From positions 25,847,756-25,911,755 of the forward strand of contig JAJEKV010000006.1 in the NCBI GenBank assembly GCA_021234155.1: a DNA stretch of 64,000 bases, written 5' to 3'. The position numbers and the translations under genes were made by a program. The notes under the pieces were generated by a model. The model was not told the DNA's origin. It did no database searches and worked only from the letters and a program-made list of their open reading frames with translations. Below are positions 6,678-63,374 of this stretch, piece by piece (positions within the stretch are counted from its first letter, which is position 1; the number at the start of each line of letters is the position of its first letter). This DNA comes from Isoetes taiwanensis (lineage: Eukaryota; Streptophyta; Lycopodiopsida; Isoetales; Isoetaceae).

Positions 6678-6772
6678 TAAATAGTCCATCAAAATAAATA
6701 TAAAATCATTTAAAAAAAAATCGCCCAAATTTTAATTAATAGTAATAAGATTATACTAAAAAATCGCCCATG
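6678..6772. repeat. Right subterminal copies of the 42-bp repeat
   Basis: The same motif occurs near 6681 (degenerate), 6721 (TCGCCCAAAT) and 6764 (TCGCCCATGG), again about 42-43 bp apart. Both arrays lie next to the ends of the hAT element and enclose the transposase remnant. The motif orientation is the same at both ends rather than inverted. Confidence 0.5.
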
Positions 6773-7265
6773 GTTAATAACTTAAAAAATAACGGTTACT
6801 CGTAATTTTTACCCTGTTTAAGAAGATAGGAGCTGCAGGTCTCGGTAATTCTGGTTCCTCTTCTCGCGTGATGTTATCCCATTCTGGGATCCCTTGGTTC
6901 TGTAGCATCCAAGCAGTGAATGCCGCCATATCCAAGCTCCCAAATTGTATGAATTCCTTTGAGGATGGATCCGGGATGAGCGCACTTGCGGCGATCGGAA
7001 AAAACCTTTGGAATGAAAGGTGCCTGCAATTCGCCATGATTCAATTTAATGGGGAAATGCGAGGGGAGAAGAGAAGGAAATTTTGGGGAAAAATAGAATG
7101 AATGAATAGAATAGAATGAGGGATGTGACTTTTGAAAGGATCATGGGGATGATCAAAAGCTGGGGTGGAAGATGGAATAGAGAAGTGACTGGCAGTTGAT
7201 CTGCCAGAACCTTACCTGGGGTTCAAGAAACCCTAGTTAGCGCCCAGTCGAGCGCCTCCTGCCTC

Positions 7266-10200
7266 TCCTCTCGTCTATTAGTTGTTCCCGATTCCCTCGT
7301 TGTGGCACTTAGAAATTATATTGAAGGGGTCTTCAATATCACTTGAGAGGAGAATAAACATCATTAAAAGCTCTAACAGAGTACAACATGAGAATAAGAA
7401 TGGACGGCTCAGGAAGGTGCCCTTTCTGTTCATCACGTTGTACAGATCTGTATTGATGAATTTGAGATGGTAGACATCAAAGTAGAAAAAAGTGCAAGAC
7501 AGTAGACATCTAATCTTTTGAAGATGTCCTTGTTATTGAAACTGGGCATTATTGAAGCCGCAAGCAATTATATGTGGAGAACATGCGAAACATGCAAGGA
7601 TGCAAAGGAGATAACAATAAGCAATAGGAATGATAAAATTTTCTAGTGAACGCCATAACAATACTGTGGTTGTGTAGTGCAATGCAGCTAGCCTGTGGTA
7701 TATTTAAAATAGAGTACCTATCTGCATGATAATTCATACAATATAATGTTACCTGTGCAAAAGCTACTACAGAAAACCAGGTGTTTGCTAGGGCCAGCTG
7801 AATGTTGCTGCAAGAAAAAGAACAAACTTATCAGACTTGACATTCAGAGCCTTCCCTTTTAAGGAATTGTCAAGGACATAAAATAGACAAAACACTCTAA
7901 ACTACAACTGTCACAAATATTAGCGGCAAGAAGCACCTCTCCCTAAAGCTACAATAACAACTAAGCACTAAACTGTGCTATGGACCCATGAATCCCCCCA
8001 TCAACGACAATCTATATCAGAAGTAGCAGTTTTATAAATGCTTCCAACAAAGCCAACTCTATGAGAAAAACCTTCTTCAGATATGTTCCTTGAAGTAGGC
8101 AAGTAGAATTTCAAAATCTTTGTTCTGCTATTCACAATGATAATTACAATAGGCAGGAAAGAGCAATTATGTTGCGCATTATGTCTGTCAAAATGGGCAA
8201 AATAATCCTACTTAGATCTACAGGTGCCACACCTTCGACCGATCTAAGTTCATCTTAGGTTCATAAAAAGTGTAGTTGGAAACTGAAAAGAAGGTCTTCA
8301 CATGAATTATTTGGAAGGCCTGTGATAAGCTCCTTCCGCTTGGATGGCTAGCTTGGATAAACCCTACTTGCAGCAAATCGATATGAAATGGGAACCTACA
8401 ATTTTATAGAACCTTTCTCAACTCTACAAACAGATCATCCCATATAAATAAAGTTGAGATTTTACTTTTGAAGAAGGGGAATGCCACATAAACTTGTTAT
8501 AATTGTGTTTCCAAAATAAGCCATGTATCCCTGCAACATTTGGCATCAATTGCAATTAAGATAAGATAGAAGCCTAAAAATAAGAAACCAGAAGACACTT
8601 GTCATTTGTATACCTCCTTGCCGCCACTTGCTTCTTGAAGAGTATATTAAATGCATGTAGCGTGGTTCATTTACTGCACAAATAAAATGATGCTTGTAAA
8701 CCACATAAAACGTTGCAGGCAGACACATAACAAAGTGTTTATATGTATACATCCAATATCAGTCTAATTCTTCTAAACCGACATGCAAAAGAGACCAAGC
8801 AAGTTAAAAAAAAGCATAGTAAACATGTGACAGATGAGAGTGATAAAAGCAACGGATACATAATAAAGCACATGCATTTGGCAAAGCGCCTGAGGAAACA
8901 TGCAGAAAAGTATGCAATTTATGTTCCTGCATGTACCAGGTTGTCGACATCTATTAGAAGCAAATTATAGCAAATACGGAGTTTAAATTAGTCCCCAACC
9001 AATGTCAAACAAAGAGACTACCGCAACCAGGAGAATACTAATGTCAAAGAGACACGCATGCAACGAATTCAACTACTTCAAATATGATTTTCACCTTCAT
9101 TTTCTATGGAAGCACAATATTTAGGATCTAACTACATAAGCTCCTGCATTGGGACTTACAGAGCTAGAGGTTCCTTCAAGAAAGATAAAAATAATAGATC
9201 TATAAAACAAAACATGGCTTTCTTTAGAGAACGTTTAGCAAAAGATGATCATATTAAGAAATAAAATGCAAGGCTCTTACTATTACCATGGGGTCCTATC
9301 TCGTCCATCCTCCAAAGCCACAATGCCCCATCAATGTGGTAAATCCATGGAAGAACTCGTGCAGTCTACCAAGAGATGCCTGTATTGCATGCAGGAAACT
9401 TTGTCTGCAATACCTCATATAGTAAGCAAATCCATTGGATAGAGTTTAGCACTCGAGACAGCAATATCTTTTCTGCAACAAAGCTCAAAGCTCGTTGTAA
9501 CATAGATCAGAAAATAAAGATGGAGGCATAGCTGGTCATAAGATTTTACAAAACATGTATATATAAGGGATTTAAAAATGCATTGTATGAAATTGAAATT
9601 AGAAAACTACCTGAGAATCTTCTATGGAATGGGTAGAGAGTCTTGCTGAATATGCAAAACCATCTTCAGTAAGCATGCTCTCAGTATGCTAAAGCATCTG
9701 CATGTAACCTGCAAAAGCAAACAAATAATGGCAAATAAATAGTGCAATCCTTTAACCTCCTCCAAGCAAGCAAGTATGCCTCTAGAAGTTTCCGTCATTG
9801 TATTTCTTACCTTATACGGATGCAACCTAGGAAAGATCATTGAGGAAATATGCTAAGAGTCTTCAAAAATTCGTAAGGCTTACCTTCTGCAAAAGGCCAA
9901 CTCCTGGATGCTGAAAACTCTTTTCTGAAACCTGAAAGTTCTAGCTGAATTCTATCCACTCCAATATACAAATATCGGTTCCTGCACATGCTTATATCAG
10001 TACTGTTTCTAAGATATTGGACACGACACGTACACTTCTTTTTCATCAATGTGCACAAAATATAGACTCGTCAATGTTCACAAAATACAGAGAGCTCCTT
10101 ACCATAAGTAATGTGCTCAAGACTGCCCAAGATTTGCACTTTCATTTTATAGAGCAAAGTCGATTGTTCCTCTCAGCCTCCTTACTATTATATTGTTGAA

Positions 10201-27679: not shown

Positions 27680-28235
27680 ACAACATTCCTATCATTTTGG
27701 AGGCAAGCCTTGAACTTCCATCTTGACATATTTTCTTTTGTTGCCTAAACAAAAAGCTTGATTCCATGATTGTCTTCTAGATTGCATTTGATTTCTTGAT
27801 TCTCAAATATGTCATTTCAACACCTGTGATCTCCAACGTTTAAGATCCCTAGCATGTTTGAGTCTTGAATTGTATAAGCAAGTGTATTGTATTGTATCGC
27901 AGGTTGTTGGCATTTTATTTTGTGTTTGAGATGGTTACTCAAGCAAGTATAAAACATATTTGAGTATGTATTTCATGGCATAGTGTTGATAGCATAATAA
28001 CATACTTAACAAACTTCCAATATGGCTGCACCAACTAATATGGTTATTGCATAGTTGTTCACCGCTAGGAGCTTATTTAGCTATAGAATGATGCCATTCA
28101 ATCTCTTAGACCTTTTTTCGTTGATCCCATCCTTAGTTCAATTGACTAGGGGATTCAATTGTGTAGCAAAGAAGCTTATATGTCATCAATCAAAGATCAC
28201 TACTCTCCCCACCCCCTTCAAAAAAATAAAAGTTG
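27680..28235. other. Stretch without a recognisable gene
   Basis: No coding region, RNA gene or element boundary is supported here. Confidence 0.4.
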
Positions 28236-28238
28236 CTC

Positions 28239-29420
28239 TATCCTTTCCGGGCTTATTATCCCATGTCTCAAATATGAAGAAGAACATTTGGAGGCTACAA
28301 TATACCCAAGGTGATGTCAATCAACTTTAAGAAAACACAATGTTGTTGCCAATCTAAAACTACATATTGATATCTTTACTTTCATGCACTATATAGGTCT
28401 TGTGATGGAGTTCTCGAGGGCCTTTAATATATCGACCCATTAAGCAACATTAATGCTATGGAAATTTAGACTAGTTAGTATCCAATGGATATCAAAAGTC
28501 TATTCTATTCTACGGGGAATGATTGGCATAGTAAAGAAGCAAGGTAATCAATGATATATAATGTAACTAATAACCGCATTTGACATTGTTGGGTTTATGT
28601 TGGGAACAAAATGGTAGGCCAACAATGCTCCCAATTTTAAAAGGCTATCCCGACTTACCTTCATAAGAATTTTACTTGAATTACTTTTAGAAGAATTTTG
28701 AACCTGAATTTAATGGATTTTATACAGCACCCCGGATATTGATAGGCCTATGGGACATAATCAAAGAGAACAACAAACGTATTACCACAAGAACTAAAAC
28801 GCCCTAGAGAGTATGGCAAGAGCATTTTAGGGGATGGTTCGCTAAAATCCATAGACTAATCAACACATTGTGGATATGTTCGGATATCATAGTAGGGTGT
28901 GCGAGACGAATGCGATGCAAAAAGTTGTGTTCTACTTTCTAAAGATGTGTGAGACACTACCACAATTGTTTAATGTAAAGGGTTGAACATGGCCCCAATC
29001 AAGGTTTAGATTCTAAAGGCACACCATTTCCACCAAGGGAAGGGAACTAATCAATCTTCAATTGGACATGGTCCCACCATCATAGATAGATAGATAGATA
29101 GTATAGATAGATAGATAGATAGATGAGATATTATACCCGATAGATAGATAGATAGATAGATAGATGAACAGATAGCTAGATAGATAGATAGATACATCCG
29201 ATATGATCTCCGATAGATAGAATAGATAGATAGATAGTAATTTTGGCATCATGCCTATATAGATAGATATATCTCCATAGAAAGGTTGGTTTCATTTTGT
29301 TTGGTAATTTAGTACCCCAAATGAGGGCCTCTCCCACACCTATATAGAAGGTTTTTTGTTTCACAAAGGTTTTTCATCTATTCTAGAGACATATTCTTCA
29401 CATTGTTGTGGTTTTATTTT
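28239..29420. repeat. Repeat module copy M1
   Basis: The first of four copies of one module. Shared landmarks are CAAATATGAAGAAG, AGGCTACAATATACCCAAGG, CATTAAGCAACATTAATG, TGGATATCAAAA, TATTCTATTCTACGG, AAGAAGCAAGGTAATCAATG, a Helitron-like hairpin next to CTARTAA, GTAGGCCAACAATGCTCCC, and TTTGTTTGGTAATTTAGTACC. M1 carries an interrupted GATA array. Its hairpin region (28566-28600) is more degraded than in M2. Confidence 0.8.
29080..29290. repeat. Interrupted GATA microsatellite (M1)
   Basis: Blocks of (GATA)4-8 are separated by short interruptions such as GTATAGATAG, GAGATATTATACCC and CATCCGATATGATCTCC. The array lies between CATGGTCCCACC and CCATAGAAAGGTTGG, the same position as the pure array of M2. 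Frames through it encode meaningless IYLS repeats. Confidence 0.9.
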
Positions 29421-29488
29421 GTGTTTGAAAACTTTATCACTATATTGTAAAACCGTCTCATAGGTCTCCTTGGGCCGTTAAAATATAC

Positions 29489-29515
29489 TTCCTTCCTTCC
29501 TTCCTTCCTTCCTCC
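29489..29515. repeat. (CTTC)n microsatellite
   Basis: Six CTTC-type units (CTTCCTTCCTTCCTTCCTTC) followed by CTCCCC and a T run. Confidence 0.85.
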
Positions 29516-30028
29516 CCTTTTTTTTTATTTCCATATCCACGACATTTTCATTTAGTATAGGAATATGCCCAGGATCAATATTGTTTGGATGGACCATTTC
29601 TTAGCCACTATTTAGGGATTAATAAGTATGCAAAGGTGGTTTTGGCCGGCCTTCGAATGCACATGCCATACCCTCTCATCACCCCCAAAAAAAATTAAAA
29701 TACAGTGATCCTTTGGGAAATGCATGTCTCAAATATGAAGAAGAAAGAGAGGCTACAATATACCCAAGGTGATGTCAACGACTTTAAGCACTAAACACAA
29801 TGTTGCCGAAACTAAAACTACATATTATGTCTTTTACTAAGCCATGCACTATATAGGTCTTGTGTTTGAGTTCTCACGAGGGCATTTCTATAGACCCATT
29901 AAGCAACATTAATGTGTATGTAAATTTAGACTAGTTAGTATCCAATGGATATCAAAAAGTCTATTCTATTCTACGGTGTAACTATTGGCATAGTAAAGAA
30001 GCAAGGTAATCAATGATATATAATGTAA

Positions 30029-30055
30029 CTAGTAACGGTGCCCAGCATTGTTGGG
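30029..30055 (-). mobile_element. Helitron-like 3' terminus within the module
   Basis: On the minus strand CCCAACAATGCTGGG folds into a 6-bp stem (one G:T pair) with a 3-nt loop and is followed eight nucleotides later by CTAG and T. The family differs in sequence from the ends at 12508 and 17008. Corresponding sites lie at about 28566 (decayed), 31371 and 43632 in the other module copies. Confidence 0.5.
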
Positions 30056-30508
30056 TTTATGTTGGGAACCTGTAAATGGTAGGCCAACAATGCTCCCAAT
30101 TTTAAAGGTATCCCTACTTACCTTCTAAGAATTTTACTTGAACTGCCCTTTTAAGAATTGAACTGAATTTAATGGATTTTTATCGCTCCCAGATATTGAT
30201 AGGCCTATCGGACATAATCAAAGAGAACAACAAACGTATTACCACAAGAACTAAAAAAGGCTAGATGCTTTTCATTTTACAAAGCTTCTGCAAAATCATT
30301 TGTAGAATGCAATAATAGTGCGTATTAGGGCAAGCATAGTAGGGTGTGCGTTGACCAAGATGCAAAAGTTGTGTTCTCTATTATATAGATGTGTGAGACA
30401 TCCCATAATTGTTTATGTAAAGGGTAGTGGCATCAATCAAGGTTTAGATTCTAAAGCTTACCATTTCCCAAAGGGAAGGAACTAATCAATCTTCATTTGA
30501 CATGGCCG

Positions 30509-30658
<150 letters not shown>

Positions 30659-31282
30659 TATTTTTACATCATGCCTATATAGATAGATATATAGATAGAT
30701 AGAAAGGTTGGTTTCTTTTTGTTTGGTAATTTAGTACCCCAAGTGGGCAGAGTTTGCTACCCCATAATATATAGAAGGTTGTTAGTTGTTCTGAAAGTTG
30801 CCTTCTATTCTATTCTATTCTTCACATTTAATTTAATTTCTTATGCCATTACATAATCACTTTATGTCTGCTTTGTTTGATCCTTTGATTGATGTGCAAT
30901 AAATACTCAACGGGCATTTACCCTAAAGAAGCACCCAAGAGCGTGTAACGAAAATAGATAGAAACACTCAAGAGCGTGGAAGAAAAGGAGACATATTAGA
31001 ATCCTAAGATCCCTTTGATTTAAAGCAAGATGATGCCACGAGATCTCCCCCCTTAATGGGGGACCAATATTTATCTAAATCGATGATTTGGTGCAAGCAA
31101 GGGGGCCAATATTTAACTACATATATGGTTTTAATTGGGAGAAATTTGCGTATAATCTAGTAAATTGAAATTGAAAAACTAGTCGGTTAATGCATGGTAG
31201 TAAATTTTCTAACAATTTTATTTTTTTTGGAATTTCTCCGGAAAACAATGCAACTTTTAGGTAATGCAGACACAATGCTATC

Positions 31283-32345
31283 AAATGGATATCAAAAGAA
31301 CTATTCTATTCTCTGATTGTAAATTGTTGGCATAGTAAAGAAGCAAGGTAATCAATGATAATATAATGTAACTAGTATAGCATTGCCCAACATTCTTTGG
31401 GTTTAAGTTGGGAACACAGTAAATGATAGGCCAACAATGCTCCCAACTTTAAAGGTATCCCTACTTAACTTCTAAAATTTTACTTAACCGCCTTTTAAGA
31501 ATTGAATTGAATTTAATGGATTTTTATCGTTCGCGGATACTGATAAGCCCATGGGACATAATCAAAGAGAACAGCAAACATATTATCGCTAGAACTAAAA
31601 AAGGCTAGATGCTTTTCATCTTACAAAGCTTTGCAAAATCATTTGTAAAATGCAAAGTAGGGTGTGCGTTGACCAAGATGCAAAAGTTGTGTTCTCTCTT
31701 ATATAGATGTGTGAGACATCCGATAATTGTTTATGTAAAGGGTCATTTATAGTGGCATCAATCAAGGTTTAGATTTCATTAAATCATTCATAAAGCTTAT
31801 CATTTCTCAAAGGGAAGGAAATAATAGTCTTCATTTGGCATGGCCTATATAGAAAGATTGGTTTCTTTTTGTTTGGTAATTTAGTACCCCAAGTGGGCAG
31901 AGTTTGCTATCCCTTAGTTAGTTATTCTGAAAGTTGCCTTCTATTCTATTCTTCACATGTAAATTTATTTGTTATGCCATTACATAATCACTTTATGGCT
32001 TTGTTTGATCCTTTTATTGATGTGCAATAAATACTCAACGGGCATTTACCCCTAAGCACACAAGAGTGTGCAATCAAAATAGATAGGAATGCCAATAACG
32101 TGGAAGAAAAGGAGACGAGATCATTCCCCTTAAGGGGGACCAATATTTATCTAAATCTATGATTTGGTGCAGGCGAGGGGGCCAATATTTAACGACATGT
32201 ATGGTTTTAATTTGGTGAACTTTGCAGAAGTCGTAATCTAGTAAATTGAAATTGAAAATCTAGTTAGTTAATGCATGGTAGTAAAATTTTTAACATTTTT
32301 TTTTTTTTTATTTTCTACCGACACAATGCAACTTTTAGGTTCAAA
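31283..32345. repeat. Repeat module copy M3, 5' of the broken MYB
   Basis: Homologous to M2 from TGGATATCAAAA to CAATGCAACTTTTAGG but without GATA repeats. It is very close to M4 (43.55-44.62 kb). Similarity with M4 continues without a break through the following MYB sequence to about 33018. Confidence 0.8.
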
Positions 32346-32703
32346 ACTTAAGATATTGAGCTACCTAGAAAATTCTGGAGTTGGGTAGAAAGGTTTGCCT
32401 CACAGTGACAACAAATGTCCTTTTAGCAACTTGGCCTGCAAGAAACTCGTATTTTCCACGTTCGATATGCTACCACTATTTTGATTTGTCGGTTAAATAC
32501 ATGTGGGAGACATCAATCAAGCTCTTATTGAATTTAGATGCAAGACAGTTTGGCTTTATATACCTACCTGGAAAAATTATGTGGTTTGCCTGAATGTACC
32601 TTGTAGGCAACATGGCTCATGGGGGCCTGCCATAAGCTAATGTTTCAAATCCTGGCATTATTACCAAGCTTTTTAAGTTATAGGTCTATAGTTTGGTTGC
32701 ACA

Positions 32704-33018
32704 ATGAAGACCTGCTCTTGCTGCAGGGCCGCTACCTCTAGAAATATGAAGAAGGGCCTCTGGTCTCCTGATGAGGACGATAAACTAAAAAATTTTGTGA
32801 GCAAGCATGGAATCATGAAATGGAGCCAGGTGCCCCTTTTGGCAAGTAATATATTAAACCAGTTACACTCTAACAAAAAATCTGATTTGTGAACTTACAT
32901 CGGTTTTTTGTTCAGGATTAGAACGTTGTGGAAAGAGCCATGTAGACTTCGAGATGGCTCAATTACTTAAGACACGGCATAAAAGCGAGGAGAATTCACA
33001 CCTTTGGAACGAAGCTTG
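32704..33018 (+). pseudogene. Truncated, frameshifted copy of the R2R3-MYB gene
   Basis: Exon 1 encodes the same start as the gene at 45001 ([19 protein letters not shown], then [12 protein letters not shown]). The last exon base before the donor is A instead of G, and the GT is kept. Exon 2 (from about 32917) has gained four net bases near 32938-32955 (AGCCATGTAGACTTCGAGATGG versus AGCTGTAGACTCAGATGG), which breaks the frame inside R2. Homology ends within exon 2 at about 33018 (GCTTGTCTTT), so R3 and the rest are missing. It is a non-functional duplicate produced with module M3. Confidence 0.9.
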
Positions 33019-34240
33019 TCTTTGGGTGTGTTTTTGCTTGACATATGCAAAAAAGCATGTGGGTGACACCCATCTTTGAAAAAGCTTTTCAAACCCGATG
33101 TGACGTCCGCCCGGAGTCCTCGGCCGATCCGAATTTTTAAGCCCTTCATTCGACGCCATGCAAAATTCTGGCCGGGAGGGAGATTCTTTTCTTGGATGGT
33201 TTAGGTGCGGGAGTGAATTTTGCAATTCGAAATGGGAAATGGCGGTGTTGTCTCATTGTTCTTGCAAAGTTATTGCAATTCATTCATCACATCCACTATG
33301 GATTTGGAATTCGCCGTCTGTCTTCCTTGGCCAAGAACCGAAAGTGCAATTTTATCCGGCACAATTCTATCGGGGCTTACAACAATTTCGGCCCGACAAT
33401 CTGAAAGATTTATGGAGTCTTTGCCTTTAGTTTCAACAAAAATTTTGATGACAAGATGATTCCCGGTAGAGGTATGCGAGGCTTACTTACACGTTTCTTG
33501 GCTTTCTGGCACTTTATTTTTAATTGTTGTGCCTTGATAGGAGAAAACGAACCCTAGCTGTCCAAGATGAAACAAGATCGAGAGGATATTCAACATGAAA
33601 AGCATATGAAGGTATGTTGTTAGTGCTTGTTTAGTCTTTGTAATAACCGATTTTTTTGTAATGATATTGAATGTAAAAACTTCATCTAAGGTGGTGGATG
33701 TTTTACGTGAAGAAGCACATCTTTGGGTTGTCTTTGAATGACACAAATGCGGATGTAGAGGATCGAGGTAATTCGAGGATTTATTATATTGTTGTTTGTT
33801 TGTGTAAAGAGAAACTTCATGACTAACCTTAGTTCTTGATTTATCTTTCGAGAAATTGGTGGTGAATTTTTGTTATGAAGAAACACAAACTGATTTTATG
33901 GCGAGACGCCATGGTGAATTCATTCAAAATGAGACACAAGCTCCAATGGATATTGAAGGTATGTCAAGTTTATCTCCGGTTGTTTTTATGTATCCTTTAC
34001 AAATTAACTTTTGTTAGCTTCTTTAGGTGTTCTTTTTAGGAAGAAGAGAGCTGAACAAAGAAGAAAAAAAAAAGACAAAGATAGAGAAAAGGGAGGTCGC
34101 GGTGATGAACAAGCCAAAATTTGAATGGTGATTTCAAAGACAAAAAAAAAAAAAGAAAAAAAAGATTGTCAAAGAATATTGGCAAACTTGTTAATAATAT
34201 TTGTAGGAATGCTAATGAAAAAAAGATAGGGAAGATATTC
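33019..34240. other. Stretch between the broken MYB and the transposase-like gene
   Basis: No gene is supported. 33.05-33.43 kb has moderate GC content and several overlapping short open frames on both strands that match nothing I know. 33.9-34.2 kb is purine-rich with lysine/glutamate-type codons and A runs, and it may be an upstream exon region of the following gene. Confidence 0.4.
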
Positions 34241-34256
34241 TAAGGGGTGCGGTAAA

Positions 34257-37200
34257 ATGGTTGCCTTTGGTCTAGGTGTTCAAACCACCAAAGAATTCAA
34301 AACAACGAAAAGCTATCGTGGACAACTTGAAGGATTCATTTGCGACCCACAAATATGCAAAGGATCTGAGATGCATGGAGAGCAAGAAGTCTTGCCATGG
34401 CTTACTCATCAATCTTTGACACAAATAGAAGGGCCTTTGCAAAGCAACTAAACCTGAATAGAAGAATTGTCTCTGTTGCTGTTAAGAGAAGACTTGCTGC
34501 TGAACATGGGGAAGAACCACGGTCAATGTTCAAGAAAAGCACTCGAAGTGACAAACTTTCTTATGATCAGAGGAAACTTGTGGTTGACTTTTGGAGGAAT
34601 AACACCAGAGTATCACCTTGCAAAAAACATGTGGTGAAGATCAGACTAGGCAAAGGAGTGAACATAATGCATCCCTTGCATTTTCTAGAGGAAACTCAAG
34701 TAAGTGTTTCTATATATTGATTTCATGTTGCCCTTTTAAATTCTTTTTATAACTTGTGAACTTGCACTTGCAGGTTACTTTCTATAAACGTTTTACTGCT
34801 GAATATCCCAAGTTTGACTTGTCTTTTTCGATGTTTCATGCTCTGAAACCACCATATGTAAGGAAGGTTAGGGATAGAGAAACTTGCTGTTGTGTGTATC
34901 ATATGAAAACAGATTTCATTAGGCAAGCAATAAATAAGGTTAGGCATGATGAGAAATTACATGGAGCTAGGCTACCCAAGTGCACTTGTGTGGTTTGTGG
35001 CCCTACGTACCAACTTGCATGGCAAATAAATGTACATACTCTTCTACCGTTGAGCTTTGGAGATCCTTTGGTTTGTCCAAGGGATGATGAAACAGAGGAG
35101 TGGTATGCACATGACTGTTTGACTCTCAAGTGCAAGAATTGTGGACCTGCCAAGTTACCAACTTGTCCAAATGAATTGAAATACATTCCAGGACACAACA
35201 TTGAATGGAAGACCTATGACAAGGTTAGAATTCAGCTTTATTTTATCCCAAGTTATATCACATTGATCTGTCATTACCATTGCAGGTACTTGAACCCATA
35301 GGAGAACCTGAGCCTGATGGCAAGGGAGGGTACAAGATTTCTACTAAACCAGTTACCAAACTGGTTTACAAATGCACAACCTATTTGAGAGATTATCCAG
35401 GGAAGCCATGAGTATCTTAAAAGAATTTATACCACATAATTATGAAGGAAGATGGCAGGCCAAACAATTCAGGGAGTGTTTGGCAACATTTCCAAAGGAC
35501 ACCATAGTTTCTGTCATAGATTTTGCTGAGAATTATACTTTTAAGATTCAGCAAGAGATACAGAGTCTACATTGGAAGAATGGTCAATGCACAATTTTAG
35601 TGCATATTACATACAGACATGCAACATTGTTAGATGATCCAAGTTTGGATGAAAATGAGAGAAGAATTATAAAAGAGACTCATTTCTACATATCAGATGA
35701 CAGGGACCATGATACCTTGTTGTGCAGTATTGTTTGAACAAGCATCATGCATTTTTGACAAACAGGGCAGTAAAGTATAACAGATTAGGTTTATTGTTCC
35801 ATGCATTTAATTTGACTTCATAAAGACGCACATTGTTTTATATATCAAATTTAGCAAATTAAAATGATCAAACTCCATAACGTGGCATAACAAGGCATTT
35901 GTTGCACAATATAACTGGAAGAGTGATGACTATATTGCAACCAATGATAGCTGGTATCAGCCTCAAAAAGAATGGGAAAAAGATGGTTTGCCACGAGAAC
36001 CTCCCAAAATGCCTGAACATAGCATAAGTCGTAGTTTTAAAGAGCTTTTGTTGCGGTCATTTGAGGATCAAGAACAGGTTGAGGAGGAGCTGCAATTTGA
36101 AGCGAGGATTTTTGAATATGCATTCAGATCTATGGTAATCACATTAAGTTCAAAAGAAGTCATTAAGTTACAAACTTTTGATGCTGCAATTTAAAGCAGT
36201 GTAGTTTATATGTGCACATCTTTTTACGTTTTTCTTTTTTTGCTCATCTTTTTACGTTTTTCTTTTTTTGCTTATGATTCTTAACAGACAAGATTTTACT
36301 GTTTAGCAACTTGGTGCTGAGTTTAGAAGGCTTGCAGAAAGCCTGTCTTGGTAATTCTATGCCACGAGCTAGCAATTAAAATTTCACAACAAAACATGAT
36401 TGCTGGTAAACTTAAACTCTGCGGCCTTATGAACAATCTTTTGATTCCAGTATAACTTTTATTTCTCATTGTTGTTTGTTTGATCTATGAGATTGCATGA
36501 CTTCTGTTGTGGATAATAGAAATAGTTACTCACTTCAATTTGTTCCAGGGATAAGCTCATTGACAGGACACTTGCTTGTGCAATCAAGCCTTTTCTACCA
36601 TTATAAATGCTTGCGTAACGCAAAGCTATATGCATTTATGGATGTAGGCAACTTGGAGAAAAAACGACAGAGGATTTAACTCTTTGTTCCTTATTAATAA
36701 ATTCTATTATTACATGCTACCTCGTATATTCAAATTCGTATATTGGTATAATATTATATGTCTAATTCTATGCAATATTTGCGTTTTTATAATTTGAGCA
36801 CCTCTAATTTGTTAGATTTGTGAGGCTATGATACATCATCCATCATTAGAGTATTAGGTTGTCTGATGGTTGCTCATCTCAGTTCAAAGGAGCAAGGAAC
36901 TTTTATTTCCTTGGTAGGAACTACCATACCAATGGCATTCCAATAAATTGGAATTACTTTGCCTCCTATCATGGCAAAGGTAACTACATTCTTTGTCAAT
37001 GGATTTATAGTTTTAATTTGTTTTTTTTTTTGCTGACTGTTAATAGAACAGGTGAACATGATGGTGCTGGAGCTGTCATTAAACGAGCTCTTACACATGA
37101 GATGTTGAAAAGAGGATCGCTATTACCACTTTCAAATGCACATGATGCAAGGTTTTCCGGTCAAGCATTTCAGGGACAACTCCAATAATCGAGGGCAAAA

Positions 37201-37900
37201 GACAGGTTCGGTATGCCGAAATCACGCTTTTAACCGTTAGTGTGTCTTTGAAATACCGCTTTTGATTGTTAGTGTGTCTTTGAAATACTGGTTTCTTTCC
37301 TAAACAGGTTTTTCTGGGAAATTGGAGTAGACGAGATTGATAGGTCAGAAAGATATGATTGTGCTACACTTTCTGGTTCAAGCAAGTTCCATTCCATCAG
37401 GCCAATTCAAGCTACAAATCCTACACAAGTTGCTCATATGGATTACAGTTGTTTCTGTCATAATTGTTGGTTAGGCAAACATGCCAAGTGCCCTAACAAA
37501 GGTAGAATAGGCACATGGCAATACTCGAGCTAAGACCAGTCTTGATTATGTGGAAGATGTTGTGGATGGCCCTGTTTTTGAAGGTGATCCTCAATAGAAG
37601 TCTGATATTCTTGCAGTTGGAGATAATTTTTTTGTAGTTGCAGAGTCAGACAATAAGGAGAATGTGGACTTCTATGTGCTGAAGTGCACAAAGGTGAAAC
37701 ATGTGGTGGAGAAGGCATTCAAAGATCCATGGGGCCAAAAGTTTGCCAGAAATGAGGTAGTTGTCACTGGATTATTCTACAAGTTCTTAGGGGGCAGCAG
37801 ATATGCGTTACTGGTAAATGAACCAGAGTGTAATGTTTATAGTCATTTGGATACTTCTGTTTGTTTTGAGTTGAGCAAGATTAGTGGTAACCTGTTTTGA
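34257..37900 (+). pseudogene. Multi-exon transposase-like gene with SDG..QFK and SHGKG-type motifs
   Basis: Exons and motifs in order: 34397-34699 with KLSYDQRKLVVDFWRNNTRV and a Pro/Lys-rich block; donor GTAAGT at 34700; acceptor TTGCAG at 34773; 34774-35223 with FSMFHALKPPYVR, RETCCCVYH and Cys pairs CTCVVC and CKNC; exon from 35286 continuing after a frameshift through DFAENYT, QEIQSLHW and ISDDRDHD to 35737; 35870-36190 more coding; 36856-36979 with SDGCSSQFKGARNFYFLG and YHGK, spliced (GT 36980, AG 37051) in frame to GEHDGAGAVIKR; 37310-37900 with CFCHNCWLGKHAKC and VDFYVLKCTK. From memory, a protein family common in invertebrates shares DFAENYT, QxEIQ.HW, ISDD..HD and SDGxxxQFK...SHGKGxxDG. 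I infer an RNase H-like, transposase-derived protein. One stop (37597) and at least two frameshifts suggest decay. Confidence 0.6.
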
Positions 37901-37909
37901 TCCGCCGAA

Positions 37910-38440
37910 GATACACATAACCAAATATTGGACAACTTGCCACGTAACAATGCATTGATAGCTCAAAACTCGATGAACCCGCATCAAGTGAGTGAAGTTA
38001 ACAAAAGAACAAGAAACTTCGGGGAAAAAGAAGAGAACGGACTAATTCTTTTAAATTGTACATTGTATACCATTCTATGATTGTAACCATTGTTACAAAC
38101 CATTGTATTGAAATTTTAACCATTGTATTGTATGGTCATTGATTTGTAATGAAATTTTAACCATTGTTTTTATTGAGATTAAAATTGAATTGTGTGTCAA
38201 TTGAAATTGAATTGGAATTGTGTTTGAATTGAATTTGAATTGGAAGTGTGTTTGAATTGGTGTGTGAATTAAAATCGAATTGGAAATGTGTTTGAATTGT
38301 GTGTGAATTGAAAATGAATTAGAAGTGTGTTTGAATTGAAATTTGTATGAATTAGACTTCTAACATTCATACATAAGATATTCATAACAAAAGTGCAAAA
38401 TAGCAAGCAAACATGATGTTGAAATTCATATCATAAGAAA
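37910..38440. repeat. TTGAATTG-rich low-complexity stretch
   Basis: Between about 38165 and 38350 the sequence is a loose tandem array of TTGAATTGTGTGTNAATTGAAATTG-like units (quoted motifs: GTGTTTGAATTG five times, GTGTGTGAATT twice). ACCATTGTATTG is repeated just upstream (38060-38130). No coding region. Confidence 0.65.
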
Positions 38441-39383
38441 TATCATCGATTCGCGTAGCAAATGCAGATCGATCCGACGGATCGCGATTCTCGAGCCAGA
38501 CGAGCATGCAAGAGTTGCATGCGTTGCCTGCATGCATTGCATGCATTTCGGGCCTCTCATCCGGTTAGGGGATCGCTATTTCTTCCTGCATTCGCCTTCA
38601 GCTTCTCATCGGCGCTTTCTCTTCGCCCAGCAGTGTTTCAGGTTATGTTCTATGCTCTCATGCAGAGGAGGGGCTTCCTCTTGCATGGGTTGACCTTTCG
38701 TGGCATTTCCTATCATTCTTGTTTCTCTTCGACCTGACCTTTCTGGCGATCCCTTCCCGGCGTTTCTTATCGTTCTCGGTTCTCTTCTACCTTGGCTGCG
38801 TTGACCTTTCTGGGGCGATCCCTTCTGGCGTTTCCTATCTTTCGTATCTCTTCCTATCCTTCTGCCGTCGCCTTCTACCTCGGCATTCCTCCACTATGGG
38901 GCAATTCTTGAGCCTTCATCTCGGATCGTGGAAGTTCTCTTCTTCGGGCGTTGTTGTGTCATGCGGTCGCAGCTCGAGAATGCGAGTCGATCCGACGGAT
39001 CGCGATTCTCGAGCAGACGAGCATGCAAGAGTTACATCGTTGCTGCATGCATTGCATGCATTTCGGGCCTCTCATCCGTTAGGGGATCGCTATTTCTTCC
39101 CGCATTCGCCTTGACTTCTCATCGGCTTTCTCTTAGCCAGCAGGTGTTTCGGTTATGTTCTATGCTCTCCCTCCCTCCCTCCCTTAAGTATTTTGTTTAT
39201 ATATGTTGTTCGTGTACGGCCAATCAGCCCCTCGCTTTTTTTCGAGGTTTTTGTTCTTCTCTATTGTGTTTTGTGGTCTTATCGCAGTACCCGAGGCGTT
39301 GCGGCGTTGGTTTCTTTTGGGCGTGGGTTTTTTGGGAAGTTTAGCGTGGCGTTGTCTAAGCCTTTGCCTAGGGCTTATCGCTA

Positions 39384-39420
39384 GGGTTTTCCTCGAAACC
39401 CGAAGGGCTGGTTTTTAATC
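39384..39420 (+). other. Conserved retroelement 3' hairpin
   Basis: GGGTTTTCCTCGAAACCC, then GAAGGGCTGGTTTTTAATC. The inverted arms GGGTTT(TC) and (GA)AACCC flank CCTC. The same motif is found at 27537, 40477 and 57352. Confidence 0.7.
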
Positions 39421-40476
39421 CCGGCGATAAGCCCCCAGGCAGGCATACACTAGCCAAACATCTATGATATATTTTTTGTATTTTGGGGTCCGTGTTTATG
39501 GACCGGATATTCCACAGTATTTTTGTTTTTGGGTAGCTTGCGATATGCACGCTACCCACTCTCTACCATTGTAATTACACCGCTGGATGAATAGAAAGCC
39601 CCATCCATCGTTGTTGTGTGCGCGAAGTCGCGGCTTCGAGAATCGACATTCTTGCACCGGGACGAGCATGCATGCATTGCATGTGCCGCATGTATGCATG
39701 GCATGCATTTTAGGCCGCTCATCGGGTTGGGGATCGCTACTTATTGCGAGTTCTTCATCGATGTTTCATCGGGCGTTTTCTCATCTCTCAGCCATATCCA
39801 TGGCTTCTATTCTTTGATCTCATGCGGAGGAGGGGCTTCTTCTTGCATGAGCTACTCTTTCTTTGGCCATTCATATCCTTTCTAACCTCTTCTATCTTTT
39901 GCCCTTTTGTCCCAAGATAGGACAATCTTCAACCTTTCTTCTCGGATCTAGTATTTGAAGTTCTCTCGTATCTGGATGTTGTTGGTTTCGGCGAATCGCA
40001 AGCAGTAAGAATATCATCGATTCGCGCGAGCTTAATCGACATTCTTGCACCGGGACGAGCATGCATGCATTGCATGTGTCGCATGTATGCATGGCTTGCA
40101 TTTTAGGCCGCTCATCGGGTTGGGGATCGCTACTTATTGCAGAGTTCTTCATCGATGTTTCATCGGCGTTTTCTCATCTCGCCAGATCCATGGCTCCCAC
40201 CCTTCCCTCCCTTAAAATTGTTATTTATATGTTTATATTTGTTATAATTGTCGCGGGCACGGACTAGCCCCCTCGCTTTTTGAGGTGTAAATGTTGTTTT
40301 TGTCGCGGCACGCTGGACCAACCCCTCGCTGGGTTTTTTCTCTATTGGTTTTTCTCATTGGTGATGTGCATGTCCAAGGGTGATGCGCCGACTTCGGTAT
40401 TCTTCTCGTGAGCGTGGGTTTTTTGGGAACGCGAGCAGCCTGCGTTGTCCAAGCCCCCGCCGAGATTTTATCGCTA

Positions 40477-40519
40477 GGGTTTTTCCTCGAAAACCCAAAA
40501 GGGCGGGGTTTTTAATCCC
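40477..40519 (+). other. Conserved retroelement 3' hairpin
   Basis: GGGTTTTTCCTCGAAAACCC followed by AAAAGGGCGGGGTTTTTAAT. It is the second tailed module copy. It is closest in sequence to the motif at 57352 within the LINE 3' region. Confidence 0.7.
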
Positions 40520-40955
40520 GCGATAAGCTCTGCGGCAGTACACTAGCCAACATCCGTCAGTAGCACACAATTTTATTTGGGGTCCGGTGTTATAACCGAT
40601 ATTCCCTATGTTTTTCATTTTTGGGTAGCCCCACGATGTGCGCCTACCCACCCTATACCATTGTAGAAAAAACTGCTGAGATGAATGAAAAGCCTATCTA
40701 TGGGATGTTGTTGGTTTCAGGCGAGTCGCAGTGCAAGAATTCATATCAAGATTCATAAGAAATTGAAATTCATATTCATAAGAAATTCATATCAAGATTC
40801 AGAAGAAATTGTGTCATTTCATATAAGTGTTACACAAAATATTTCAAAAAATTACTGCACCTAAGGGGAAAATTGGTGCAAGAAAAGCAAAGATTGTCAA
40901 CATGAAAAGCAAGATTCTCAACATGAAGATTAAAGTAGTATTGTCAACATGAAGA

Positions 40956-43178
40956 TTACAGCTGCAACTTCTTATGCAGCTTCTTCTCCAACCACTTCTC
41001 CATGGTAACATCTTCCTCCATGGGGCTGTTTGGGCTTTGTGGAGACAACAACACTTTCCTTTGTGCTGGAGACAATATCTCACATGCTGGTGAGATCACC
41101 ACTGTGCTCAACTCTCGACCTGCAAACAAAACAAGTCAACGTTAAAAATTTATTTGTGCAAACAAAATGTGCAAGATAACACTTACAAGTGCTCAAGGTA
41201 TTGACATTTGCTCAACAACTGCAACTGGAACTGGAGGATCTGCATAATACAAGTTAGGTCAGTCTAAAATAAAACTATTGAACACATGTGCTGAAAAAGT
41301 GCTTACCTTTTTTAACTGGAGTGTTCATTGCAGATAAGCCCTCCTCTGAAACCTCAGTTTCCACAAAGACCTTCCCGTCCAACCACTTTTGAAATTTTTT
41401 TTCGCATTTAAAAAAGTCTTTGTAAGTCAAATGCACATGAGTAAATGATACATATGTTGAAATGTTGCTTACCTTTCATTTTTGGAGACAAATCATGCAC
41501 TGCAAAATAGTGCTGGACAAGGTTATCTACAACATCATCACTAGTAATGTCTGCAGCAAAAAAAATCTTAAGTAATTGTACTCAACTCTCAATGTTAATT
41601 TTTTTACCTGCAGCTTTACTGCCTATCTGAGGACTATCTTCACGAGCTAAGTGAGAAAACTTCATTGGACTAACCTTGTCCACATCAATTGGATCTGCAA
41701 GGAATAAACAAACTTCAAGCAAGCTTTAACTAACTTGAGAAAATACTGAATAAGTACCTAGATCTATGGGTTTTTGACCACATGACTTAGTGGATTCTTT
41801 TCTTTGCCACTCTGACAGGCTGAAAATCTGAACTTGGTGGATCATTAAACATAGAGGTGCTCGAGCTAGTTTCTTCTTTGAATCTCTTCTTGGGTGTCAC
41901 CTCCTTCGCTTTTTCCAGCTTTGCTTTTTTTTCTACTTCTTCTGCTGGTTTTTTCTACTTCTTCTGTTTCTGTTTCTTCACTTGATTCTTCTTCATCTGA
42001 ACCTGGTGGCTTGAGTTCCTTGAAACCAAGTTCATCAAGAATACTTGGAGGAACCTCAACATCACAGCCAGATGCAATGCAATGCATGCCTTCCAGCACA
42101 ACACTGAAACATATGACATGGTAAATATGACCACATGAATTAATCTTAACATGCAATTCATATTCTTGTAAAAACAGAAGGCCACAGCCCTCACATGTGG
42201 TTGCCCTTTGGACATTGGGAAATTATAAGTTCCCATTCTTAGTTTTGGGAGACTCTTCTTGGATTTCTCATTTTGATGCAAATGAGCCACATGCTTGCAC
42301 TTGGCATGCCAATACTTCATGTTAGTTTCATAATTATCAATATCAGAATTGAGAATAGAAATTTCTTTCTTTAGTTCCTGCAAACCTGAAGTGTTCACCT
42401 TCGACATCTGCTTGTCTAGAAAAGCTTGGAGAGCTTGCTCATCCCTTTACAACACTTATATTGCATCTTCTTCATCAGGACTGAACAGCTGTAAATCCAT
42501 CCACATCTGCCTCTTCTCCTTTATCTCGTCTTCTAGATCCTTGAAGTTTGCATTGGAGTTGCTGATGGAACCTTCCATTCTCAACAGGTCGGCCTGTTTC
42601 TGCACCAATTCCTTCTTGCTGTCCTCATACATATGGGAAAGTGACCTAATGTGATTCAGCAGTGCAGTGGTTTTCTTCTCGAAAGCATTCCCATGTTCTT
42701 TGTTCAGGCCCTTTCTGCACATGCTGAATCCAACAAGTATATCTCTGTTGCACTTTATCCTAGACAAGCTCAACGAATCATAAGATGGCAGGTTCTAACC
42801 ATATCCATTTGCACTGGTAGGTACCCCCTTGCCACTTGCCAGTTTGTTCAACTTGCTTGCGGTCATGATGGAAGGATCATAGTTTTGCCACCGCAACACA
42901 TACTCGACAAATTGAAGTTGCTGCGTATTCTCCATGCTGCATATGATTGCATCTTGGACATTATTCTTTGGCCCTTCCTATATAGTGACTATTATGCCCA
43001 GCTGTTCGAAATCTTCTTGCCCCTTTCCGTTCCTCAAAAAGAGACACAATTCTTTGCGGCAGTCTCCTGCCGCATGAGGTTTGGCTTGGGCTATTTCCAT
43101 GCACCACTTCTGACTTCTATCAGGAGTTATGATCCGCATGGGTTCCACATTGGGGCCGTGAAAAAGATCCAGTGCTGC
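40956..43178 (-). pseudogene. Multi-exon coiled-coil and RING-like zinc-finger gene, probably decayed
   Basis: Transcribed leftwards from a TTGCAG acceptor at about 43179. The first exon region reads LDLFHGPNVEPMRIITPDRS and later FVEYVLRWQNYDPSIMTASK. 42770-42460 is a coiled coil (KKELVQKQADLLRMEGSI), continued by LQELKKEISILNSDIDNYE. Then comes TTCEGCGLLF with C-x2-C, NSCGHIYHVIC and HCIASGC, together a C3H2C3 RING-H2-like pattern with an unusual last C-x4-C. An acidic Glu/Ser/Thr tail and a basic KKSKAGKSEG follow. Further exons with sharp borders read DPIDVDKVSPMKF, DITSDDVVDNLVQHYFAVHD, VETEVSEEGLSAMNTPVKK and a last exon (41120-40956) ending EKWLEKKLHKKLQL. Stops occur near 42995, 42455 and 41205. 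A role in protein-protein or ubiquitin-type interactions is inference. Upstream exons are missing. Confidence 0.55.
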
Positions 43179-43189
43179 AAGTAGAATAT

Positions 43190-43366
43190 GAAACAGGTAA
43201 GTAAAACAGTATAAGATCCAATCTGTAGCCGCGATCCTTGAAACAAGTATATAGATTATTCACGGTTTAGGAGAATGTTCTCGCCAGGATCGCGCCCACG
43301 ATCCTTGTGAGTAGTACATTAAAAATATTTTGTATGTAGTAGTCACAAGAATCGCGACCGTGATTT
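43190..43366. other. Short stretch with repeated ATCGCG palindromes
   Basis: GCCGCGATCCTTG, GGATCGCGCCCACGATCC and AATCGCGACCGTGATT occur within 150 bp. It separates the coiled-coil gene from module M4. No gene. Confidence 0.45.
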
Positions 43367-44620
43367 CTAACGACTTTAAGCACTAAAAACAATGTTCCCA
43401 ACAACTAAAACTACATATTATATCTTTACTAAGCCATGCAATATATAGGTCTTGTGTTTGAGTTCTATGAGGGCATGCAATGTAAAGTTAATATAGATCC
43501 ATTAAGCAACATTAATGTGTATGTAAATTTAGACCAGTTGGTCCAATGGATATCAAAAGAACTATTCTATTCTACAGTGTAATTGTTGGCATAGTAAAGA
43601 AGCAAGGTAATCAATGATACTATAATGTAACTAGTAATTGATTGCCCAACATTCTTTGGGTTTAAGTTGGGAACACAGAAATGATAGGCCAAACAATGCT
43701 CCCAACTTTAAAGGTATCCCTACTTAACTTCTAAGAATTTTACTTGAACTGCCCTTTTAAGAATTGAATTGAATTTAATGGATTTTTATTGTTCGCGGAT
43801 ACTGATAAGCCCATGGGACATAATCAAAGAGAACCGCAAACATATTATCGTTAGAACTCAAAAAGGCTAGATGCTTTTCATTTTACAAAGCTTTGCAAAA
43901 TCATTTGTAAAATGCAAAGTAGGGTGTGCGTTGACCAAGATGCAAAAGTTGTGTTCTCTCTTATATAGATGTGTGAGACATCCCATAATTGTTTATGTAA
44001 AGGGTCATTTATAGTGGCATCAATCAAGGTTTAGATTTCATTAAATCATTCATAAAGCTTATCATTTCTCAAAGGGAAGGAACTAATAGTCTTCATTTGG
44101 CATGGCCTATATAGAAAGGTTGGTTTCTTTTTGTTTGGTAATTTAGTACCCCAAGTGAGCAGAGTTTGCTACCCCTTAGTTAGTTATTCTGAAAGTTGCC
44201 TTCTATTCTATTCTTCACATGTAAATTTATTTCTTATGCCATTACATAATCACTTTATGGCCGCTTTGTTTGATCCTTTTATTGATGTGCAATAAATACT
44301 CAACGGGCATTTTCCCCTAAGAAGCACCCAAGAGTGTGCAACTAAAAGAGATAGAAATGACAATAGCGTAGAAGAAAAGGAGACGAGATCATTCCCTTAA
44401 GGGGGACCAATATTTATCTAAATCGATGATTTGGTGCAGGCGAGGGGGCCAATATTTAATGACATGTATGGTTTTAATTTGGTGAACTTTGCAGAAGTAA
44501 TCTAGTAAATTGAAATTGAAAATCTAGTCAGTTAATGCATGATAGTAAAATTTTTAACCCTTTTTTTTTTTTTTGAATTTTCTACCGACACAATGCAACT
44601 TTTAGGTACCGACACAATGC
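43367..44620. repeat. Repeat module copy M4, 5' of the MYB gene
   Basis: It starts CGACTTTAAGCACTAAAAAC, matching M2 at about 29777, and continues through all module landmarks to GCAACTTTTAGG. The last 20 bp (ACCGACACAATGCAAC) are doubled at 44584-44630. It contains no GATA array. It is the likely upstream region of the MYB gene at 45001. Confidence 0.8.
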
Positions 44621-45000
44621 AACCTTTAGGTTCAAAACTTAAGATATTGAGCTACCTCGAAAATTCTAGAGCCAGAAAGGTTTGCCTCACAGTGACAACA
44701 AATGTCTTTTTAGCAACTTGGCCTGCGAGAAACTCGTATTTTCCACGTTCGATATGCTACCACGATTTTGATTTGTCGGTTGGATACATGTGGGAGACAT
44801 CAATCAAGCTCTTATTGAATTTAGATGCAAGATAGTTTGGCTTTACATACCTACCTGGAAAAATTATGTGGTTCGCCTGAATGTACCTTGTAGGCAACAT
44901 GGCTCATGGGGGCCTGCCATAACCTAATGTTTCAAATGCTGGAATTATTTATTTGTGGAACCAAGCTTTTTAATTTATAGGTCTATAGTTTGGCTGCACA

Positions 45001-45869
45001 ATGAAGACCTGCTCTTGCTGCAGGGCCGCTACCTCTAGAAATATGAAGAAGGGCCTCTGGTCTCCTGATGAGGACGATAAACTAAAAAAATTTGTGAGCA
45101 AGCATGGAATCATGAAATGGAGCCAGGTGCCCCTTTTGGCAGGTAATATATTAAACCAGTTACACTCTAACAAAAAATCTGATCTTTAAACTTACATTGG
45201 TTTTTCGTTCAGGATTAGAGCATTGTGGAAAGAGCTGTAGACTCAGATGGCTCAATTACTTAAGGCCTGGCATCAAACGAGGAGAATTCACACCTTTGGA
45301 GCAGAAGCTTGTCTTTCAGCTCCAATCTCTTCATGGTAACAGGTATAATAACAGATTGAAAAATTACATTTCACTTGGAGGTTAAATCATATTATGTAGG
45401 ATGGATTTATGAAGTTGACACATGCATATATTTCTTGCAGATGGTCCTGGATTGCTCAGTGGATTCCAGGCCGCACGGACAATGAAATCAAGAATTTCTG
45501 GAATGTGGTACATAAATCTAGAAATTCCAAAGTAAATCTACTGAATATGGGTTATGTTTCCGGCTATAAATCTAGAAAGGCGACGGATGCGGGTCATGTT
45601 TCCATTTCTGATTCAGCGCTTCCTATAGAATTGGAACTTGTGACTCGAACTTGGAAGTTGAAGCTAAATCTGAGGAGCCCCTTCATATGGACAGTGAAAT
45701 GTCAGCAATTTTCAAATCTAGTTTTAGCCCTTCCATTGACTCAGACATGAACAACACTTGTGGCCTTATTTCTGAATCTTTTTATGGTGCCATGGATCAG
45801 GAATTCATGGACTGGAACCATCTTCTGGAACCAGATTCCAATTCCTTACCTTGGAATGCCTTAGACTAG
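45001..45869 (+). CDS. R2R3-MYB transcription factor with a frameshifted C-terminus
   Basis: Three exons: 45001-45142, 45213-45342 and 45441-45869, with GT/AG introns at the two standard R2R3-MYB positions (within [11 protein letters not shown] and after GNR/W). R2 has W residues in [18 protein letters not shown] and RLRWLNYL; R3 has F in place of the first W (EFTPLEQ), then NRWSWIAQW and [19 protein letters not shown] is diagnostic. R2R3-MYBs bind DNA in the nucleus and regulate development or secondary metabolism; the closest group is not clear. In exon 3 the frame used by the MYB domain ends at 45750. A second frame gives a more MYB-like acidic tail ([20 protein letters not shown] to LPWNALD, stop at 45867). 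A one-base shift between about 45620 and 45655 therefore splits the C-terminus. It may be a real mutation or a sequence error. Confidence 0.8.
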
Positions 45870-45879
45870 ATTTTGACCC

Positions 45880-46230
45880 CGCGACAGTAATCGTTCTGTA
45901 ATTAATGTGAGCATTATGTAATAATTCTAAAGTGTCGTTGATGCTAAAATGGAGAAATCTTTTAACAGCACCCACAATACATATATCGGAATTTTCTCGG
46001 AATTATAATCAGGCCGTTCTATGCCAAGTATGGTGAACACCCAACTAAGGCTTTTGGAGAGTCTTAAATATCATACACGTTCATTTTCAAACCATGGACA
46101 TATCAGTAACGCTCAAATTATCTCCCCATCCAAGATATAGAAACCCATCCGGCTTTCAACATTGAAACCTTTCCAAATTTCCCTCCACTGAAAATAAAAT
46201 ATTTTTGGATAGACGTCTAAAATTTATTAG
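45880..46230. other. 3' flank of the MYB gene
   Basis: No gene seen. AATGTGAGCATTATGTAATAA at 45903 is a plausible 3' UTR/polyadenylation region (split motif: TATGTAATAA). Confidence 0.4.
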
Positions 46231-49850: not shown

Positions 49851-49989
49851 ATATATGATGTTGGTTGATCTCATGCTTGCACCTCTTGTGTATTGGGAAG
49901 AAGGGTGGAAACCTAGTATCCATTACTTAGATGACGCTCCTAGTTTAGACCCATTAGTTCCCATTATATGCGGCTTGTGCATAGATGTG

Positions 49990-50275
49990 ATGCCCCATGA
50001 TGATATACGATATAAATACATATATTATACTACCATAGATAAGTTGTCTAAACAGGTTCATTTTCTTCTGTGTAAGTCAAATATGACTGCACCACAAGCA
50101 AGCACGATTTTCTTGAAGGAGATATTTAGGATTTATGGAATGCCAAATGCAATCATAACGGATAGGGATCCATTATTTTGCAGTCGGTTTTGGTCGAGAC
50201 TCATGAAAAATCTAGGCATGAGTTTAAAGTTCTCCGCAGCCTATCACCCTCAGATGGATGGCCAGACTGAGGTAG
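49990..50275 (+). pseudogene. Ty3-type integrase fragment
   Basis: Within an open 166-codon stretch (49858-50355) the part from about 50030 reads IDKLSKQVHFLLCKSNMTAP, then FLKEIFRIYGMPNAIITDRD with the second Asp of the DDE core, and FSAAYHPQMDGQTE. This order and spacing are those of Ty3/gypsy integrase. The zinc-binding HHCC part, the first Asp and everything after QTE are lost or scrambled. It is a small relic inside a repeat-rich block. An approximate repeat of 49861-49995 occurs at 50818-50940 (CCTCTTGTGTATTGGGAAG). Confidence 0.8.
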
Positions 50276-50379
50276 ATGTCGTCATACCATGCCATAAAGT
50301 GTTATACCTTGGGATACAACCCTTGGAGACCATTATATCATACATGTCCATCTAGATATATGAATATTACCCATGTTTC

Positions 50380-62682: not shown

Positions 62683-63374
62683 ATGGCTCCTAGAAAAAGT
62701 AATGAGGTGTCTGACCAAATTCACACTGAACCACCAGAAATACAGTTGTACCCACTGCAAATGCCACCAATCAAGGTAATGCAGGTATACAATATTTTGA
62801 ACTCAATATGCCAATCCCTCCTCCTACTTTTGATCCAAGTGTCAATGCTAATAATTTCTTGAAAAACTATGAGGAATATTATCAAGAATATGGTCACAAA
62901 AAGGGTAGTAAATTTTCAGAATTCAAGAAGTGTTTCAAGAATGAAGAAATGAGAGCATGGCTGGAGTACACCATCAGCACAGGTGTCAGCACTTGGGAAG
63001 AGATCGAAAAGCAGTTCATCGAAAGTTTTGGTAAGGCAATTGAACCACAAGATTTGATTTTTGAATTGCAGACCTTTCAGATTAAGCATGGTGAAACTGT
63101 GCACCAATATGTTGAGAGATTCCATGTTTATCTAATAAAATGTCAAGCAAGTCAGGTACCAAATCATACCCTACACCTTGTGGCTTGTTTCATAAGAGGC
63201 TTAAGCAGCAGGCCAAGGGTGCACAGAAAAATGTATAAGTTGCAGAAGCAGGAAGGCTTTGACACCATACACAAGGCTTTTACCAAAGCTATTGAGATTG
63301 CTAACATGTTTTCCTATCTTCTTGATGATGTGAATGTGACTCATGATCCCTTCTTTCCGTTTATGAACCCGTAA
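62683..63374 (+). pseudogene. Retrotransposon gag, capsid part (Ty3-like)
   Basis: ATG at 62683 opens MAPRKSNEVSDQIHTEPPEI. A frame change near 62750-62775 joins it to NQGNAGIQYFELNMPIPPPT and the 188-codon frame 62808-63374. The latter contains the retrotrans_gag core: FLKNYEEYYQEYGHKKGSKF, MRAWLEYT, STWEEIEKQFIESFG, then FQIKHGETVHQYVERF and a C-terminal helix region to FPFMNP. W and F spacing fits the gag capsid family. A second frame change at about 63365 links it to the nucleocapsid part. With two frameshifts this copy is probably defective unless one is a programmed or sequencing event. Confidence 0.75.

Follow-up and report, generated by a model that had tools for sequence, protein, structure and literature searches.

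Mutator/MULE transposons carry two convergent genes, mudrA and mudrB, one of which encodes an accessory protein. MULEs make target-site duplications of 7–12 bp, according to the summary in PMC10741241. The Sola superfamily was described by Bao et al. 2009 (as summarised in PMC10741241 and cited in PMC4455052); in the summary, its members have a DDD transposase, 4-bp duplications, a length of mostly 2–9 kb, and inverted repeats of 11–1124 bp, and they are said to occur in Physcomitrella and to be seemingly uncommon in flowering plants (PMC10741241). Further entries list Sola in the repeat table of Ceratopteris (2739; PMC6890710), describe Sola as richer in Azolla than in Salvinia (PMC6786969), assign 56.7 Mb of Cryptomeria to Sola-2 (PMC11539532), and count Sola-2 among the putatively active elements of Hydra (PMC12220107). 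The word Sola is absent from the main texts of the two Isoetes genome papers, and a single paper that mentions both Isoetes and Sola is, judging from its title and abstract, on an unrelated subject.

We analysed a stretch of 64,000 bp of the quillwort Isoetes taiwanensis (hereafter the window), which contains a truncated copy of a repetitive element. Comparison of this element with the described systems revealed that (i) its 4-bp duplications, length of ~7 kb, inverted termini, putative D-D-D residues, and non-flowering plant host are Sola-like; (ii) it carries a RING-like second gene, for which no report in combination with Sola was found; (iii) its two convergent genes, one of them putatively accessory, are reminiscent of Mutator/MULE; and (iv) it differs from Mutator/MULE in its 4-bp duplications and in its transposase, which has no Pfam match. 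The element is very probably an abundant cut-and-paste (class II) DNA transposon. From its duplication length, size, putative D-D-D residues, and host range as described in print, it probably belongs to the Sola superfamily, and calling it Sola-2-like is a guess. Only its RING-like partner gene sets it apart from ordinary transposons.

Termini, target sites, and copy number

The left terminal inverted repeat (TIR) of the window copy, GGGTGTGTTTTTGCTTGACATATGC, is located at positions 33024–33048 on the + strand and was identified from a sharp 5′ boundary shared among copies and from a genomic TIR search. When twenty 10-kb stretches around copies were compared with positions 28000–46000 of the window, the similarity of seven copies (L011, L012, L014, L016, L017, L018, and L024) was found to begin sharply at 33021–33024, with 85–93% identity in the first blocks. 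The copy L009 (contig C1049) also matches the flank and looks like a segmental duplicate. Complete copies end with GGGTGTGTTTATGCTTGATATGTGC on the opposite strand, which is the inverted partner of the left repeat (22 of 25 positions identical), and this length of ~25 bp is inside the range described for Sola. A genomic scan with the terminal pattern, in which up to 2 mismatches were allowed, gave 69 matches on the + strand and 70 on the − strand (139 in total), whereas the reversed control gave none on either strand; the inverted repeats bordering other copies, which the first-pass annotation had proposed to look for, are thus present.

Three copies (L011, L012, and L016) are complete, with lengths of 6337, 6799, and 7030 bp, respectively, and each is flanked by a perfect 4-bp duplication. 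Among 100 of the 139 matches that were listed, 28 facing TIR pairs lie less than 15 kb apart; the 28 TIR-bounded copies consist of these three and 25 newly sampled pairs. Their median length is 7046 bp (n = 28), and 25 of them fall within 2–9 kb. Target-site duplications of 4 bp flank 22 of the 28 (19/25 new pairs and 3/3 earlier ones), whereas the 4-bp flanks agree in only 16 of 600 cross-pairs used as a control. Among the 25 new pairs, no 5- or 6-bp duplication was found, and 6 pairs had no 4-bp match at all. L059 duplicates L051 in reverse complement, and L077 shares the flanks of L065, which leaves a count of 17/23 for independent sites. No fixed sequence recurs among the duplicated tetramers, in which 64 of 76 bases are A or T.

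In the window, the target site left of the element is CTTT (33020–33023), as revealed by comparison with an empty site; its right duplicate is gone together with the lost right end of the copy. The empty target site (45313–45316) lies in a paralogous flank, in which positions 43542–45316 match 31281–33023. The paralogue runs from GCTTGTCTTT directly into CAGCTCC, and the element-bearing copy enters the left terminal repeat at that very point, which shows that the insertion point is at CTTT. Positions 28262–33023 and 43360–45316 form a tandem array with units of ~1.1–1.5 kb (pieces up to 98% identical) and GATA microsatellites, and the transposon is inserted within one unit of this array. The direct repeat at 31.3–33.0 and 43.5–45.3 kb was also considered as the termini of a 12-kb retrotransposon; this was rejected, and the repeat belongs to the tandem array that starts at ~28.3 kb.

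The genome that was searched comprises 1,658,258,908 bases in 1110 contigs. A 129-residue open reading frame in the transposase core (35348–35737) matched all 150 places that were scored, its own included, with E values of at most 2.7e-49 (the best 150 of 6008 first-look candidates were scored); the motif family is therefore not a product of chance. The open frame of the relative L025 gave at least 150 matches, with 121 of 9275 candidates scored. Both copy numbers are lower bounds, because only part of the candidates was scored. A transposase origin, one of three possibilities raised in the first-pass annotation, is thus well supported by the inverted termini, the 4-bp duplications, the empty site, and the high copy number. 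The termini, duplication length, and gene content can now serve to annotate the whole family.

The transposase gene and the decay of the window copy

The window had previously been annotated at 34257–37900 as a coding locus with the motifs DFAENYT, QEIQSLHW, ISDDRDHD, SDGCSSQFK, and HGKG...HDGAGAVIKR, joined across a splice at 36980/37051. These motifs are present on the + strand in the order claimed, and the splice is exact: GT at 36980–36981 and AG at 37050–37051 bound a 72-bp GT-AG intron (36980–37051). The intronless relative L025 (4629–5621) reads HGKGEHDGAGAVIKR in a single open frame, which confirms the exon join. The stretch is a real coding remnant and its intron was correctly called, but the unit is larger than had been proposed, extending from the TIR at 33024 to the cut-off at 42707. 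In the genome-wide search with the L025 frame, 28 of 29 second pieces begin at query residues 251–259, so a break at these residues is common in the family.

On the basis of motifs and relatives, the transposase gene remnant (exons and introns, with a broken and interrupted frame) occupies 34041–37900 on the + strand, its ends being approximate. It includes (i) a Cys-rich region in open frame (CCCVYHM ... CTCVVC ... CKNC; 34753–35301), which has no Pfam match and whose end reads into an intron; (ii) the first part of the putative catalytic core as aligned, from DFAENYT, with the first conserved Asp, to ISDDRDHD (35405–35722); (iii) the core part from SDGCSSQFK, with the second conserved Asp, to HGKG (36862–36979); (iv) behind the 72-bp intron, the core part from EHDGAGAVIKR, with the third conserved Asp, onward (37052–37188); and (v) a C-terminal remnant (37297–37900), which is open at 37598–37900 and has 4 stops at 37297–37596, weak evidence by themselves as one frame was tried.

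In the numbering of the L025 frame, the three residues are Asp127 (DFAEN), Asp221 (SDG), and Asp262 (HDG), which are Asp in 21/21, 20/21, and 14/15 aligned sequences, respectively, L025 and the window included. They are separated by 93 and 40 residues, a spacing like that of a DDE/D triad. The first-pass annotation had likened the acidic residues of S-D-G and H-D-G to those of an RNase H-like core, and their conservation in 20/21 and 14/15 sequences is consistent with a catalytic role. At residue 260, 8 of 18 sequences have Glu, but this count is unreliable because the alignment of many copies runs straight through the intron located there. The transposase would bind the 25-bp inverted termini, and a putative D-D-D active site, in a presumed RNase H fold, would cut the element out. 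Insertion would proceed through a 4-bp staggered cut, and repair by the host would give rise to the 4-bp duplications.

In all 10 pairs compared among five lineages, the core has a pN of 0.07–0.23 versus a pS of 0.36–1.01. The core dN/dS is 0.14 and 0.07 in the two unsaturated pairs, and dS is saturated in the other 8 of 10. We read this as purifying selection on the transposase core, with a protein that would have been mobile through most of its history. Sequence searches of Pfam, NCBIfam, PHROGs, and the PDB with window pieces and the open frames of relatives gave no transposase match. The core also hit topoisomerase V (E = 0.027), a match that looks compositional or due to chance. Pattern searches gave 76 matches in IMG/VR viral contigs and 205 in GTDB prokaryotic contigs, none of which was confirmed as a relative. 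AlphaFold models of single window pieces taken alone had mean pLDDT values of 54.9 (one exon) and 50.5, too low to inform on the fold.

The reading frame of the window copy breaks after ISDDRDHD. A foreign segment of 1073 bp (35785–36857), which is absent from the sampled copies that span the junction, lies within the core, and the coding region is therefore non-contiguous. Compared with L016, this segment replaces ~12 transposon bases without a clean flanking duplication, as if it had been filled in during repair. Its open reading frame (35868–36194) represents another sequence of lower copy number (20 matches from 24 candidates). Relatives of this frame are found on contig C985 (98%) and in a 368-residue open frame on C1058. 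Downstream, a repetitive stretch inserted at 38415–40787 is absent from L011, L012, L014, L016, and L024 and partly shared with L009 and L018. A different insertion was observed in the transposon copy L024, in which a long low-complexity stretch (6082–8073, with Phe/Pro/Ser/Leu-rich frames) lies between positions 6049 and 8078.

At the other end, the similarity to complete copies stops at approximately 42707 and the right terminal repeat is missing; since complete copies stay similar to one another past this point, the right end of the window copy has been lost. The stretch 33024–42707 is therefore a decayed, right-truncated, dead copy, which cannot be a functional gene, because its frame is broken, it contains foreign DNA as well as the insertion at 38415–40787, and it has stops. 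In annotation, the locus calls for repeat masking rather than a gene model.

A second gene with a coiled coil and a RING-H2-like finger

The element contains a second gene on the opposite strand, convergent with the transposase gene, which begins near the right terminus and encodes a coiled coil and, C-terminally, a RING-H2-like finger. Its remnant in the window (41958–42716, − strand; G000:C1067:25889713–25890471), with the finger at 42064–42195, has 2 stops and a start that is cut off, and the match extends 9 bases beyond the breakpoint at 42707. Frames of the second gene were found in the relatives L016 (7927–8937), L021 (7942–8844), and L025 (9532–9990). By eye, the window, L021, and L025 show the full set of C3H2C3 ligands, and the last Cys is missing in the L016 frame. 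The Pfam matches are all below the curated scores: zf-RING_2 in L025 (E = 2e-4), zf-RING_5 in L016 (E = 0.0065), and, for the window piece, a best RING match with an E value of 0.026; the second gene of L021 has no RING match in Pfam. The coiled-coil gene also hit SMC/Rad50 models, at a score far below the curated one (best E = 1e-5), and these matches look compositional or due to chance.

A genomic search with the second gene gave at least 123 matches, with 119 of 2986 candidates scored. By position, the gene lies within at least 23 of the 28 TIR-bounded copies, a lower bound because only the best candidates were scored; among these candidates, no match was found for the copies at C15, C656, C1030:4796167, C1053:2115128, and C1067:27930809. 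At no more than 45% identity, there are 54 second-gene matches, of which 29 have no stop. Of the 54, 18 are located no more than 15 kb from one of the transposase places in a selected list, and 16 of these 18 are convergent with it. Three pairs were compared, two of them with L025, where the locus end truncates the frame; pN is 0.39–0.51 versus a pS of 0.64–0.87, and only one dN/dS value is finite (0.50). By this pN/pS comparison, the second gene is less constrained than the transposase. The second gene is thus a long-standing part of the element.

The RING-like protein may be an accessory factor, putatively a ubiquitin-ligase-like or protein-binding helper. If confirmed, such a recurrent partner would mean that transposons of this kind can bring along an accessory factor of the ubiquitin type. 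More speculatively, and with less in its favour than against it, the element may represent an old and distinct two-gene plant transposon lineage, within or outside Sola, in which the coiled-coil/RING protein would be an obligatory partner, for instance in ubiquitin-dependent control of transposition.

Affiliation and alternative origins

The assignment to Sola has to be weighed against a DNA transposon of a non-Sola or undescribed superfamily that likewise makes 4-bp duplications. We consider this unlikely, even though the element has no sequence link to described transposases in Pfam, NCBIfam, PHROGs, or the PDB, and a literature search found no report that joins Sola, a RING finger, and a DNA transposon, because the structural features agree with Sola as summarised in PMC10741241, and Sola has been listed in moss, ferns, a conifer, and Hydra (PMC10741241, PMC6890710, PMC6786969, PMC11539532, and PMC12220107). 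With Sola known from these hosts and the element probably one of its members, its presence in a quillwort is unsurprising, and the earlier view that the locus is unusual in a plant finds no support in these listings. A probable Sola element therefore remains our reading in what follows.

The motifs DFAENY, SDG..QYK, and HGKG..DG also occur, in the same order, in uncharacterised invertebrate proteins. This motif family, which had looked animal, is here carried by an abundant DNA transposon. This likeness, together with the putatively active Sola-2 of Hydra (PMC12220107), would fit a scenario in which the family was acquired horizontally from an animal. We nevertheless regard this as improbable: the sources listed above report Sola in a number of plant lineages outside the flowering plants, and 8 of the 10 between-lineage pairs within the genome have saturated synonymous sites, which points to either long residence or several entries.

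Domestication of the transposase as a cellular gene, also raised in the first-pass annotation, has a negligible probability and is rejected for the window copy, which is broken, interrupted, truncated, and one of very many: the coding sequence can be spliced and its core is strongly constrained, but the constraint is seen from one lineage to another, a pattern that a mobile family would be expected to show, and instead of a single or a few intact copies without transposon ends, the genome holds at least 150 copies, with inverted termini, target duplications, and an empty site.

Other repeats are also present in the window. A non-LTR retrotransposon remnant with DUF4283 and an endonuclease/exonuclease/phosphatase domain is located at 3158–5614 on the − strand. 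On the + strand, positions 49852–50355 contain a remnant of a retroelement integrase core (rve, E = 1.2e-7, just below the Pfam cut-off), and positions 62730–63374 encode the gag protein of a retrotransposon, which Pfam matches as Retrotrans_gag with E = 1.3e-9.
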